Notes under the pieces: generated by a model
The model's input: only the letters and a program-made list of their open reading frames with translations
Database searches by the model: none
Told to the model about the DNA's origin: nothing
Program-made: the position numbers and the translations under genes
Source of the DNA: an uncultured Bacteroidales bacterium
GTDB lineage: Bacteria > Bacteroidota > Bacteroidia > Bacteroidales > FEN-979
Assembly (NCBI GenBank): GCA_903887775.1
Contig: CAISRB010000033.1
Span: forward strand, 62,001 to 126,000
Direction: 5' to 3'
Length of the DNA: 64,000 nucleotides
Part shown: positions 19,310 through 54,291 of the stretch, piece by piece
Layout: the number at the start of each line of letters is the position of its first letter
Position numbering within the stretch: the stretch's first letter is position 1

Positions 19310-19356
19310 GGAGAATAATTGAATGATCGAATACTCGAATGTTGAATTCCGAATTG

Positions 19357-19477
19357 AACGCAATAACGCTGAACGCAATAACGCAATAACGCTGAACGCA
19401 ATAACGCTGAACGCAATAACGCTGAACGCAATAACGCAATAACGCAAAACGCATTAACGCAAAACGCAATAACGCAA
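19357..19477 (+). repeat. AACGC tandem repeat upstream of the M28 peptidase gene
   Basis: Sixteen consecutive units of AACGC plus a 2-3 base spacer (AAT, TG, AA or ATT), so the period is 7 or 8 bp; many pairs form a 15-bp supra-unit AACGCAATAACGCTG. The array fills the gap between mnmA and the peptidase gene and ends 14 bases before the ATG at 19492. The A-rich strand is the coding strand of the downstream gene. Confidence 0.95.
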
Positions 19478-19491
19478 AAACATTTTACGAT

Positions 19492-21299: not shown

Positions 21300-21400
21300 A
21301 ACGCCATAACGCAAAACGCTATAACGCCATAACGCAAAACGCCATAACGCAAGACGCCATAACGCCATAACGCCATAACGCAAAACGCCATAACGCAATA
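21300..21400 (+). repeat. AACGC tandem repeat upstream of the GtrA gene
   Basis: About 13 units of AACGC followed by CAT, AA, AAT or TAT (period 7-8 bp), one of them degenerate (GACGCCAT). The array runs right up to the ATG at 21401; the start codon itself lies in a degenerate unit AATGCTAT. The sequence differs in its spacers from the array at 19357 but shares the AACGC core and the sense orientation. Confidence 0.95.
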
Positions 21401-21820
21401 ATGCTATTTAACATAGGTATGGATTACGCACAACTCTTCAACGAGGCCTTTATCCTGAAATTCATCAAATTCTGCATGGTGGGATTTTCAGGCGTTTTCG
21501 TGGATTTCGGCATCACTTTTATCTGTAAGGAATTTCTGAAAATCCAGAAGTATGTATCTAATGCGATGGGGTTTACGATTGCTGCCACGACCAATTATAT
21601 GCTGAACAGGATGTGGACTTTTCACAGCAACAATCCTCAAATAGGGCTTGAATTCACCAGATTTTTCCTCATCGCCCTCATTGGACTGGGGATCAACCTG
21701 CTCATAATCTGGACTATGACGGGAAAGTTCAGGGTGAACTTCTATATTTCGAAGCTGATGGCTACTATCTTGGTTACGATGTGGAATTTCCTGATCAATG
21801 CTTATTTTACTTTTGCCTGA
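21401..21820 (+). CDS. GtrA-family membrane protein
   Basis: A 139-residue protein with four transmembrane helices and the family signature KFCMVGFSGVFVDFGITF, then ATTNYMLNRMWTF. GtrA proteins help move undecaprenyl-linked sugars or otherwise assist cell-surface polysaccharide building. The ATG at 21401 follows the repeat array without a gap; an in-frame ATG at 21419 is an alternative start. The 3' end overlaps the convergent ChaN-like gene by 19 bp. Confidence 0.85.
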   Translation: MLFNIGMDYAQLFNEAFILKFIKFCMVGFSGVFVDFGITFICKEFLKIQKYVSNAMGFTIAATTNYMLNRMWTFHSNNPQIGLEFTRFFLIALIGLGINLLIIWTMTGKFRVNFYISKLMATILVTMWNFLINAYFTFA

Positions 21821-24471: not shown

Positions 24472-24506
24472 ATCCTGTCTTGTTATTTCGGCTGCACCGA
24501 ACGCCT

Positions 24507-24680
24507 TTCACTTTTCGCCTTTCGCCTTTCGCTTTTCGCTTTTCGCCTTTCGCTTTTCGCTTTTCGCTTTTCGCCTTTCGCTTTTCGCCTTTCGCCTTTC
24601 GCCTTTCGCTTTTCGCTTTTCGCTTTTCGCCTTTCGCTTTTCGCTTTTCGCCTTTCGCTTTTCGCTTTTCGCCTTTCGCT
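24507..24680 (-). repeat. GCGAAAA/GCGAAAG heptamer repeat upstream of ctp
   Basis: About 25 heptamers, GCGAAAA or GCGAAAG on the minus strand, almost without error; only the last is altered (GTGAAAG). The array begins just after the yidD stop (24688) and ends about 36 bases before the ctp ATG. The purine strand is the sense strand of ctp. Because the period is 7, all three frames encode the same basic heptapeptide cycle (such as SERRKAK), which makes a spurious 73-codon frame across the array. Confidence 0.95.
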
Positions 24681-43763: not shown

Positions 43764-43844
43764 CGTTATTGCGTTCTACGTTGTTGCGTTAAGGCGTTGT
43801 TGCGTTTAGAACTGTGGCGTTATTGCGTTACTGCGTTTAGCGTT
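43764..43844 (-). repeat. Degenerate AACGC repeat upstream of icd
   Basis: On the minus strand about 10 units of AACGC (one AACGT, one AACGA) with 2-3 base spacers such as AAT, AAC, CTT or AGT, interrupted once by CACAGTTCTA. It ends 10 bases before the icd ATG. It shares core, period and sense orientation with the arrays at 19357 and 21300 but is more decayed. Confidence 0.9.
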
Positions 43845-43868
43845 ATTTCGTAATTTGTACATTGTACA

Positions 43869-50877: not shown

Positions 50878-52227
50878 ATGGACATGAAGAAATTTATTGC
50901 CGAGCATGCCCCTGAAACGGAAAGCTCATGCACTATTGACGAGCAGCTTTTCAAGCAGTTTGATGTAAAAAGAGGCCTTCGGAATGCAGATCATACGGGC
51001 GTACTTGTAGGACTTACAAGGGTCGGAAGCGTGGTAGGTTACGAAAAAATTGATGGCAAGCTGGTTGCGATCGATGGCAAACTGATCTACCGCGGAATTG
51101 AAATAAGTGACCTGGTTCGCGGCAACCAGGCCGCGAAACGTGCCGGTTTTGATGAAACCGTATTTCTCCTGCTTTTCGGGCATCTCCCAAAAAAGGAAGA
51201 GCTGAAAGTGTTCTCGGAAGGCCTGGCTGAACAAAGGGCCCTGCCCGAGAATTTCAACAGGGATATGATCCTGACCATGAAAGGCAAAGACATCATGAAC
51301 ATGCTTGCCAGGTCTATCCTTGCTTTGTATACACTCGACGAAAATGCGGATGATACCAGCATTCAGAATATCATCAGGCAGTCGGTCAGCCTTATAGCAA
51401 AATTCCCGACCATTGCAGTATATTCCTATCACGCCATGCGCCATCTTATTTATTATGATACACTTACGGTGCGCTATCCGGATAAAAAACTGCACACGGC
51501 CGAGAACTTCCTGTATATGCTCAAGGGGCACGACTATACCCCGCTCGAAGCCGAACTTCTTGATCTTTGCTTAATGCTTCATGCCGAGCATGGAGGCGGC
51601 AACAACTCAACCTTTACCACAAGGGTTGTTAGTTCAAGCGGCACCGATACCTATTCGGCTATTGTCGCTGCCATCGGCTCGCTAAAAGGCCCACTCCATG
51701 GTGGAGCCAACATTGAAGTGATCGACATGATGGACAATATCAAAGCTAATATAAAGAACTGGGGCAACGATGATGAGGTGACCGAATATCTTCGTAAGAT
51801 CCTGAAGAAAGAGGCGTATGACAAGAGTGGAAAGATATACGGATTCGGCCATGCAGTGTACACCGTTTCCGATCCCCGCGCTATCCTCCTGAAAGAGAAA
51901 GCCAGGCTGCTTTCAAAAGAAAAAGGCCGTGAAAAGGAAATGGCCCTGTATGAAGCAATTGAACGAATCGGACCTGAAATCTATTATGAATTCAAAGGCA
52001 CGAAGGAGAAACTGATCTCTCCGAACGTTGATTTTTACAGCGGCTTCGTGTATGAATGTCTCAAGATACCGAAGGAACTCTTTACCCCTCTCTTCGCCAT
52101 TTCACGTATCTCCGGATGGTGTTCTCACCGTCTTGAGGAACTGATCAGCGGGCGCAGGATCATACGACCGGCCTACAAGGCTGTTGAGCCCGACCATAAA
52201 TATATCCCGTTCAGCGAGAGAAAGTAG
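50878..52227 (+). CDS. gltA: Citrate synthase
   Basis: A 449-residue enzyme condensing oxaloacetate and acetyl-CoA. Active-site histidine segments are HAEHGGGNNSTFTTRVV and GPLHGGANIEVIDMM, followed by GFGHAVYTVSDPRA and NVDFYSGFVYECLKIP with the catalytic Asp. The length is slightly above the common 430 residues, through an N-terminal extension. Its end overlaps the convergent SDR gene by 17 bp. With acn and icd it gives the oxidative opening of the citric acid cycle. Confidence 0.95.
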   Translation: MDMKKFIAEHAPETESSCTIDEQLFKQFDVKRGLRNADHTGVLVGLTRVGSVVGYEKIDGKLVAIDGKLIYRGIEISDLVRGNQAAKRAGFDETVFLLLFGHLPKKEELKVFSEGLAEQRALPENFNRDMILTMKGKDIMNMLARSILALYTLDENADDTSIQNIIRQSVSLIAKFPTIAVYSYHAMRHLIYYDTLTVRYPDKKLHTAENFLYMLKGHDYTPLEAELLDLCLMLHAEHGGGNNSTFTTRVVSSSGTDTYSAIVAAIGSLKGPLHGGANIEVIDMMDNIKANIKNWGNDDEVTEYLRKILKKEAYDKSGKIYGFGHAVYTVSDPRAILLKEKARLLSKEKGREKEMALYEAIERIGPEIYYEFKGTKEKLISPNVDFYSGFVYECLKIPKELFTPLFAISRISGWCSHRLEELISGRRIIRPAYKAVEPDHKYIPFSERK

Positions 52228-53059
52228 GGTACATTTTGCGCATGGCCCTGTTCACGAAATACGACGAAAAAGCTGAAGGCAGAATTCTTGAAATAAAAAA
52301 ATAACCCAGGCGGTTTGTAAATCCATCAATACAGACCGCCTTTTTTCCGCACATTTTTATAGCATAAGCTGCCACCCTGAACGGATCAGCCATGGGTATA
52401 TCGCCCTGCGCCCTGCTTTCAAGAAATTTCGGAGTGTTGATGATACCTGCGCAGCAAGTGCTGATACCGATTCTGTAAGGCTTCAGCTCGTAATATAAAG
52501 ATCTGGCAAGGCTTATCAGGAATGCCTTGCTTGCTGCATAAGGGGTTATATAGACCGGCGCCATCAACCCGGCCAGGGATGACATCAGCAGTATTTTACC
52601 CGGTTTTTTCTGATCGCGGAGATACCCGGCAAAAGCATGGACAACCAGCATGGCCGTGCGGTTGTTCACATCAATAAAGCGTTCAAGGTTTTCAGAAGAA
52701 TGGTTGAGAAACGGCTTGACCTCCGACATGGCCGCGCAATACACCAACATCGTGCATCCCCCATCCTGTATCCCGGATCCTTCATTCTGCACCCCGGACC
52801 CCGGATCCCGGAGCCTGGATTCCGGATTCCGGACCGCATCCATGCACACCTTCCATGCATCCTGTTCCCCCAGGTCAACACACAGGCTTGTGACTTTGAT
52901 GCCATATTCCTTAACCACCTTCCTCTCTATCTTCTCCAATGCTTCTCTCCCGCGATCGACCAGTATGAGGTTAAATCCTTGCGCAGCAAGCAATGTAGTG
53001 AAAGCCTCGCCCAATCCCTCAGCCGACCCAGCGATGAGGGCCCATTGCACTTCTTCCAT
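52211..53059 (-). CDS. Short-chain dehydrogenase with an internal heptamer-encoded insert
   Basis: About 282 residues from the ATG at 53059; the open frame to a TTG at 53086 overlaps the divergent promoter. The Rossmann glycine motif is GSAEGLG (11-17), followed by LVYCAAMSE and the active-site YAASKAFLISLARSLYYEL. It lacks the usual NNAG, having YCAAM. Between the second strand region and LVYCAAM there is an unusual stretch of about 26 residues (RNPESRLRDPGSGVQNEGSG and on) encoded by a 7-bp DNA repeat. The substrate is unknown; a mammalian-type 17-beta-HSD/retinol relative is possible. Confidence 0.85.
   Translation of the reverse strand: MEEVQWALIAGSAEGLGEAFTTLLAAQGFNLILVDRGREALEKIERKVVKEYGIKVTSLCVDLGEQDAWKVCMDAVRNPESRLRDPGSGVQNEGSGIQDGGCTMLVYCAAMSEVKPFLNHSSENLERFIDVNNRTAMLVVHAFAGYLRDQKKPGKILLMSSLAGLMAPVYITPYAASKAFLISLARSLYYELKPYRIGISTCCAGIINTPKFLESRAQGDIPMADPFRVAAYAIKMCGKKAVCIDGFTNRLGYFFISRILPSAFSSYFVNRAMRKMYPTFSR
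52758..52834 (-). repeat. Heptamer (ATCCGGG-like) repeat inside the SDR coding sequence
   Basis: On the minus strand, eleven contiguous 7-bp units: GTCCGGA, ATCCGGA, ATCCAGG, CTCCGGG, ATCCGGG, GTCCGGG, GTGCAGA, ATGAAGG, ATCCGGG, ATACAGG, ATGGGGG. The array covers 77 bp, so gain or loss of one unit shifts the frame. Confidence 0.85.
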
Positions 53060-53076
53060 GATATTTCCTAATTTTG
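53044..53076 (+). promoter_or_regulatory. Promoter of the DUF1214-like gene
   Basis: ATTG at 53044-53047, a 21-base spacer and TAATTTTG (53069-53076) fit the Bacteroidota pattern. Transcription would begin near 53082, which excludes the TTG frame start at 53074 and supports the ATG at 53107. Confidence 0.5.
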
Positions 53077-53106
53077 CGGCATGCAATAATACTTAATTTC
53101 CTGCGA

Positions 53107-54291
53107 ATGTCTAAGTTGCTCTTTTTCTTCCTGAACCTGATGAAGTCCTGGCAGTCCTTTATTTTAAAGATGAAAGGCAAGACTGCGGATGACATACACG
53201 GGGACCGGATCATATCGGGTAAGGCCTGGGATGAATTCTGCGATAACCTGAAAGCTGCAGGTGCAGCTCTTAAAATGCCGGGTACACCGCGGGATGCCTT
53301 TAACCAGGCCGAAGGCATCCGGTACCTTAGCCGGCTTACGAGGGGAGGGCTTGAGGCTTTCATAGAATACTGTGATCCTGCATTTCCTGTTTTAAGGCGC
53401 ACGGCCCACGAAACGATCAAGCTCGGAGCCGACAACCCCGATAATTATTATTTCAACGCCCAGATCAGCGGGCAATATGAATACCGGCTTACCGGAAAAA
53501 GGAATACTGTGCATTACTTCGGCCTGTTTACCCAGAACGGGAACTACGGAACCACCGGAGGCATGGCGCCATGCGCAGTCCTCGAACATAATGAAATCCA
53601 ATATGAACATGATGGCAGTTTTGAGGTCATCCTGAGCGTTGAAAAGAAAGGAAAGAACTGGCTTAAAATTGAAAAAACAACCAGTATGCTGATGGTAAGG
53701 CAGACCTTCAACAACCGCTTTACCGAGACTCCTGCCGAGATACAAATTGAAAACCTCGATGGCCGCAGGGCTCCGGTAAATATCACGCCGGCGATGGTTG
53801 ACCAGGGATTGAACACCGCATCGATGTTCGTGGGCGGGGCAGCCCTGCTGTTCTCCCGCTGGGCCAAAGGTTTCAAGGAGCATACCAACAAACTTCCCCT
53901 CTTCGACCCGAAGAAGTCGAACGATGCCGGGGGAGATGCCTCCATCATTTATTACCATTCTTACTGGAAACTTGCCGATGACGAGGCCTTGCTGATTGAA
54001 GTGATGCCTCCCGACTGCGATTCCTGGAATTTCCAGTTGAACAACTATTGGATGGAATCCCTCGATTACCGCTATTTTACAGTATGCATCAACAAGGCCT
54101 CCGCAAAATACGAACCGGATGGCTCGGTAAAAGTGGTGGTTGCTCATTCGGATCCCGGCTTGCCAAACTGGATCAGTACCTGCGGGCATTACGAAGGTAC
54201 CATGCTCTGGCGGTGGTACCGGTTGGAGCCCGGGGCGCAGGCGGTAGAACCATCATGCAGGGTGATCACGCTCCGCCATCCGCAGTCATAA
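53107..54291 (+). CDS. DUF1214-like protein
   Basis: A 394-residue protein without a clear signal peptide; the first helix (SKLLFFFLNLMKSW) is hydrophobic but short. The C-terminal part (about 290-390) has MESLDYRYFTVCINKAS, VAHSDPGLPNWISTCGHYEG and MLWRWYRLEP, the pattern of DUF1214. That domain is frequent in mycobacteria and in lipid- or sterol-metabolising bacteria, with no settled function. It is divergent from one SDR gene and lies near a sulfotransferase and a second SDR. Confidence 0.65.
   Translation: MSKLLFFFLNLMKSWQSFILKMKGKTADDIHGDRIISGKAWDEFCDNLKAAGAALKMPGTPRDAFNQAEGIRYLSRLTRGGLEAFIEYCDPAFPVLRRTAHETIKLGADNPDNYYFNAQISGQYEYRLTGKRNTVHYFGLFTQNGNYGTTGGMAPCAVLEHNEIQYEHDGSFEVILSVEKKGKNWLKIEKTTSMLMVRQTFNNRFTETPAEIQIENLDGRRAPVNITPAMVDQGLNTASMFVGGAALLFSRWAKGFKEHTNKLPLFDPKKSNDAGGDASIIYYHSYWKLADDEALLIEVMPPDCDSWNFQLNNYWMESLDYRYFTVCINKASAKYEPDGSVKVVVAHSDPGLPNWISTCGHYEGTMLWRWYRLEPGAQAVEPSCRVITLRHPQS

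Follow-up and report, generated by a model that had tools for sequence, protein, structure and literature searches.

An SDR-family oxidoreductase gene of an uncultured Bacteroidales bacterium carries a diverged array of 7-bp units within its coding sequence. We consider it likely that this array arose by in-frame expansion of heptamers, within a tolerant loop at the surface of an SDR enzyme that is otherwise ordinary. It seems to be one among many in-frame repeat insertions that these genomes tolerate, rather than an on/off switch. The gene is located in a contig stretch of 64,000 nucleotides, hereafter the window. Comparisons were made across eight genomes of the genus, including the window genome (G000).

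The SDR gene is on the minus strand (52211..53059). Its assignment is based on the list of open reading frames, on a Pfam adh_short match, on PDB relatives that are SDRs and on orthologues present in all eight genomes of the genus. Counted from the ATG at 53059, a start codon chosen by inference, the product contains 282 residues; the open frame reaches further up, to a TTG at 53086. The match to PF00106 (E 1.1e-31, 110.3 bits for a cut-off of 26.6) is split in two pieces, the best of which covers residues 112-221. The catalytic motif of SDR enzymes is composed of Tyr-x-x-x-Lys and an upstream Ser. Residues S161, Y174 and K178 are invariant in an alignment of nine sequences, and we take these to be at the expected places of the catalytic Ser and of the Tyr-x-x-x-Lys motif. 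Among the matches listed, none of the 25 NCBIfam models reaches its own cut-off, so that no substrate is suggested for the enzyme. The gene converges with a citrate synthase gene (50878..52227, plus strand; Pfam PF00285, E 6.1e-123), the 3' ends of the two genes overlapping by 17 bp. The divergent neighbour shows a DUF1214 match (53074..54291, plus strand; Pfam PF06742, E 2.9e-08). In another genus of the family, the SDR orthologues L044 and L050 (genomes G014 and G008, respectively) contain a different insertion of about 40 residues (..PQQQPEAGKEAGIVSSGKISGEDRATGPDQLRGSVDSR..), located earlier in the protein.

The array extends over positions 52750..52833 and is read on the minus, coding strand. 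It is supported by TRF, a lag-7 test, the linker lengths of the orthologues and the predicted loop described below. TRF reports period-7 arrays at 52763-52820 and 52793-52833. Cut in register on the coding strand, the array is made of 12 units (84 bp). Units 1-6 are TCCGGAA TCCGGAA TCCAGGC TCCGGGA TCCGGGG TCCGGGG and units 7-12 are TGCAGAA TGAAGGA TCCGGGA TACAGGA TGGGGGA TGCACGA. The lag-7 identity is 54/77 (0.70), a value reached by none of 20000 shuffles of the same letters. Over the 390,857 bp of the whole contig, a lag-7 identity at least this high is attained by just six clusters of 84-bp windows, one of which is the SDR array. TRF, the lag-7 test and Pfam therefore confirm the heptamer repeat within an SDR coding sequence proposed by the sequence-only reading; the count of eleven units given there becomes 12 in register.

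The SDR protein was modelled with AlphaFold2 from the nine-sequence alignment (mean pLDDT 69.5, pTM 0.74). In the model, strands and helices alternate in the Rossmann-type order. The insert corresponds to a modelled loop that follows helix 68-77 and leads to strand 102-107, spanning about residues 78-101 with block pLDDT values of 45 and 41. This location, between a helix and the next Rossmann strand, agrees with the earlier suggestion that the insert sits between the Rossmann strands. In SDRs, a loop ahead of the fourth strand generally lies opposite the catalytic end of the sheet. The insert is probably a floppy loop with little effect on the enzyme.

The linker, defined as the coding DNA between the anchors AW and LVY, could be compared in all eight genomes of the genus; in G004 the SDR gene is split over two contigs and the linker is still covered. 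G007 has the longest linker, with 141 bp, followed by the window genome with 120 bp, and the six other genomes all have 57 bp. The reading frame across the linker is intact in 8/8. The gains are thus 63 bp (9 heptamers) in the window genome and 84 bp (12 heptamers) in G007, both multiples of 21 bp. With respect to the six short orthologues, nine of the 12 units of the window array represent the net insertion and the remaining three correspond to the native linker. Hence, the three-unit length logic anticipated from the sequence holds between species, where the differences are multiples of three units. The alignment with the closest SDRs that had been proposed as a check was carried out, and the insert is missing from most close homologues, namely the six with a 57-bp linker. 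The repeat-encoded linker had been put at about 26 residues, which is close; the net gain over the short orthologues is 21 residues. The array of G007 is cleaner than that of the window genome, with GGATGCR as the unit. The two SDR proteins are about 79% identical.

The insertion site already resembles the repeat in genomes with a short linker. Three copies of ATGCRGG were scored along five of the six short orthologues, G004 being left out because its gene is cut. With this consensus, which was derived from the array of G007 after that array had been seen and makes the test partly post hoc, the insertion site is the rank-1 match of 793 positions in 5/5 orthologues. The scores at the site are 21, 21, 15, 21 and 22 of 24, the value of 15 being that of G003. 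In G006, the native 21 bp read ATGCGGG ATGCAGG ATGCAGG. In the 22 family-level orthologues examined, the linkers are short, the scores range from 9 to 16 of 24 and the site ranks first in three cases. The simplest reading of these alignments is that the 21-bp linker came to look like three heptamers within the genus, and was then lengthened in one branch. The native linker probably seeded the SDR array. The sequence-only reading had evoked the capture of an intergenic-type repeat; the insert more probably grew from a native 21 bp of about three heptamers, as seen in the relatives.

A tree built from 253 ungapped columns of the SDR joins the window genome to G007 at 98%. An AlaRS tree recovers this grouping at 37% only, so that two independent SDR expansions are possible. 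The preferred scenario would start in an ancestor shared by the window genome and G007, with a native 21-bp linker near three heptamer units. This linker would have grown by duplication of units, most likely through replication slippage. Selection would have kept only array lengths in multiples of three units (21 bp), other lengths being lost because they break the frame. After the lineages parted, nine extra and now degraded units would be left in the window genome, and 12 extra, cleaner ones in G007. In the protein, the added residues would form the floppy loop that precedes the next Rossmann strand, with probably little change to the enzyme. We infer slippage as the mechanism, a single origin and a near-neutral effect of the insert.

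Arrays of 7- and 8-base units are found at other places in the window, and were located with TRF with no strand attributed. By crude gene calls, an array of AACGCAAT/AACGCAA units (8 and 7 bases; 19355..19481) and an array of CGTTATTG units (43764..43855) are intergenic, and an array of AACGCCAT units (21300..21401) touches the end of a crude ORF. An array of 25.6 CGCTTTT units, belonging to the AAAAGCG family (24502..24680), lies in a crude ORF of 115 aa that is probably no gene. Since this last array, with its 21-bp super-period, is in no convincing gene, three-unit super-periods are not limited to coding sequence. The 21-bp super-period was also considered as a sign of frame selection in genes, and was rejected as such: it is found in 3 of 12 internal and in 1 of 13 intergenic heptamer arrays, which is no clear excess.

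At the genome scale, tandem-repeat rows peak at periods 7 and 8. The window genome has 18 and 9 such rows in 391 kb, and G007 has 53 and 30 in 385 kb, as counted in MAG assemblies, which may collapse repeats. Five Markov simulations for each of these two genomes gave no tandem-repeat row at period 7 or 8. Position counts took in arrays of periods 7, 8, 14-16, 21 or 24, some of the longer-period rows being probably due to chance, and relied on crude gene calls. On this basis, the 37 arrays of the window genome comprise 13 intergenic ones, 7 across a gene end, 5 near a gene terminus and 12 internal. The corresponding numbers for the 90 arrays of the G007 sample are 32, 21, 16 and 21. A Pfam scan of one frame of locus L165 gave no match.

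The abundant units differ between genomes. Four successive GGATGCN units give 324 overlapping matches in G007 and none in the window genome, and matches are present in 17 of the 43 genomes of the family. GGATGCT/GGATGCN arrays are also abundant in G028, G030 and G031, from genera g3 and g4 (26, 46 and 282 overlapping matches, respectively). No such array was found in the 19 genomes of genus g2. The unit is therefore patchy across the family. Three successive AAAAGCG units, with at most one mismatch, occur 259 times in the window genome, 15 times in G004, 10 times in G006 and in none of the other five genomes of the genus. Reversing this unit yields a rotation of the same repeat, and the control with the reversed pattern therefore carries no information.

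Several housekeeping genes, identified with NCBIfam models, contain in-frame arrays. In G007, these are the genes of DNA polymerase I, alanine-tRNA ligase, MurG, NAD+ synthase (NadE), UvrA and the A/G-specific adenine glycosylase MutY, the last one scoring just below the cut-off (277.4 vs 286.5). In the window genome, they encode phosphoribosylformylglycinamidine synthase (PurL), MutS (scanned over its first 689 residues) and an RlmI-like methyltransferase whose best model is far under its cut-off. For both AlaRS (linkers of 126-192 bp) and MutY (69-276 bp), 8/8 genomes of the genus keep the linker in frame, these counts including some linkers without a clear array. PolA has an in-frame linker in six of the eight; in G004 the linker is interrupted by the end of a contig, and in the G001 assembly, which is about 80% complete, it is out of frame. 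In G001 (L197, G001:C22), the anchors differ in frame and are separated by 527 bp, the linker holds heptamer arrays and 63-bp repeats, and the assembly has separate exonuclease and polymerase reading frames. This apparent frameshift, either natural or an assembly error, is the sole one seen in a gene. Where an array is flanked on both sides by matches to the protein of the other genome, one frame is kept in 5/5 cases in G007 and in 3/3 in the window genome, only arrays with a match in the sampled part being counted and two of the three latter cases being weak or in a small ORF.

For AlaRS and PolA, unrelated heptamers occupy the same linker in different species. For instance, the PolA linker contains AAAAGCG-like units in the window genome versus GGATCCA units and octamers in G007. 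These sequences suggest that the repeats of the two linkers were replaced repeatedly, and slippage at a single inherited seed offers no explanation there. A 1738-aa double UvrA-type protein of G007 (L128:225-5438; G007:C75:40225-45438) shows four separate in-frame heptamer arrays, two of which are located between what we take to be the LSGGEAQR motif and the next DEPTTGLH motif. A dispersed element of about 140 bp, unlike the heptamers, is found in frame in the mutY linker of G005 (C33:29679-29821, L198) and of G004 (C259:1786-1928, L199). In G002, the mutY linker has part of it, in reversed orientation. Matches to this element, full or partial, are seen in 7/8 genomes of the genus, with seven matches in G007. 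It looks like a small mobile repeat that entered a housekeeping gene in frame.

The species-specific units raise another possible origin for the SDR insert. Ready-made heptamer arrays could be copied from elsewhere in the genome into tolerant loops, by recombination or template switching at short matches, and the insert could have been pasted at a heptamer-like match. Each genome indeed has its own abundant heptamer (GGATGCN in G007, AAAAGCG in the window genome), the PolA linkers differ in the same manner, and for 16 of 100 arrays a reverse-complement copy is found within 120 bp, as compared to 0 for shuffled units. These inverted pairs were also considered as a possible mobile palindrome, a reading that was not retained. 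At the SDR site, however, a match to the unit, in register, is already present in the native DNA, which makes an import superfluous. In addition, no target duplication or donor copy was found for the insert, and GGATNC arrays are few in the window genome. We regard such a dispersal as an unlikely origin for this particular array. A peptide selected for a function of its own, for example binding or oligomerisation, is the least probable of the explanations considered. The insert is shared by two species with SDR proteins of about 79% identity, but its peptide is poorly conserved between them (RNPESRLRDPGSG.. vs RDAGCGMQDAGCG..), is modelled at low confidence and is missing from six relatives of the genus.

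Phase variation, the possibility put forward by the sequence-only reading, would imply that slippage by one or two heptamers turns the SDR off and on. The unit is not a multiple of three and lies in a coding sequence, its number varies between species, and the out-of-frame polA of the G001 assembly could be viewed in the same way. In Haemophilus, heptanucleotide tracts in promoters or coding sequences are known or proposed mediators of phase variation; those of hmw1A and hmw2A in H. influenzae have 13-38 units, are mostly in promoters of surface-protein genes and vary between strains (PMC2651432). The SDR array shares with these tracts the 7-bp unit and a variable copy number. Unlike them, it is degenerate and located in the middle of a gene for a predicted enzyme, and its alleles are all in frame (8/8). 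No near-identical tract prone to slippage is observed, since at most two adjacent units are identical in the window genome. Moreover, similar in-frame arrays occur in alaS, murG and polA, usually essential or important genes whose switching off should be costly. The proposal of a phase-variable enzyme is therefore unsupported, and we consider it very improbable. In-frame expansion from the native linker remains the preferred reading for the SDR gene.

Heptameric repeats are over-represented, or are the commonest long simple repeats, in many bacteria (Mrazek 2007, as reported in PMC4679880 and PMC4692102). GGGNATC arrays of Xanthomonas and Nostoc are described as mostly non-coding with a preference for four units; 11% and 7% are intragenic in two xanthomonads, with a larger share in Nostoc, and unit numbers vary (PMC4692102). 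The present genomes likewise have many dispersed heptamer loci, some of them intragenic, and the G-rich GGGNATC is close to the GGGATCC and GGGATGC found here. In contrast to that description, several long arrays are here in frame in housekeeping genes, the SDR gains come in threes and the linker units differ by species. In Geobacter metallireducens, four GGGACCG units are found at 49 places, in and between genes, and a regulatory role was proposed; unlike the SDR array, each element has four units, and protein linkers or three-unit steps are absent from the discussion as far as the excerpt goes (PMC2700814). TAACTGA repeats of Beggiatoaceae, Cyanobacteria and some Bacteroidetes are also heptamer arrays with a patchy distribution, and several Bacteroidetes and Cyanobacteria have as many as 43 copies. 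Unlike the SDR array, most of those in the main genome studied directly precede start codons, and their unit has stop codons on one strand (PMC4679880).

The best parallel for in-frame insertion in metabolic genes is given by the Rickettsia palindromic elements. These are portrayed as discrete elements of about 150 bp, grouped in families and inserted in frame in metabolic genes, with added peptides that seem to be tolerated (PMC10969869). The SDR insert differs from them by its tandem heptamers, its native seed and the lack of any sign of mobility at the locus. It does not have the character of a discrete mobile element, as it shares sequence with the native flanking heptamers and its seed is present in the empty sites. 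A literature search, thin on subscription papers, identified no recognised in-frame heptamer expansion in Bacteroidales housekeeping genes. Genome-wide heptamer repeats are thus already known in other bacteria; the new aspects are the probable seed, the gains in steps of three units and the apparent replacement of units, species by species, in linkers of housekeeping proteins.

When the unit length of a pure repeat is not divisible by three, the three frames of a strand all encode one cyclic peptide, a heptamer giving a cyclic heptapeptide. Since the peptide is the same whatever the entry frame, only the exit frame constrains a heptamer array. This makes heptamers a simple source of new in-frame loops. 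We tentatively envisage, as a possibility rather than an expectation, that heptamer and octamer arrays are a continuing linker factory in this genus. A species-specific "dialect" would be spread by copying and would refill the linkers of PolA, AlaRS, MutY and the SDR, the frame being held by selection. If this is true, proteins of the core machinery would gain new segments from frame-neutral DNA repeats. As a caution, a period-7 repeat in a gene is not, by itself, evidence of phase variation. The genus provides a before/after series in conserved genes, with a short native linker, a seed, a 9-unit array and a 12-unit array. Comparisons within it raise the questions of what favours units of 7 and 8 bases, how a species-specific unit comes to spread and to what extent random linkers are tolerated by core enzymes.
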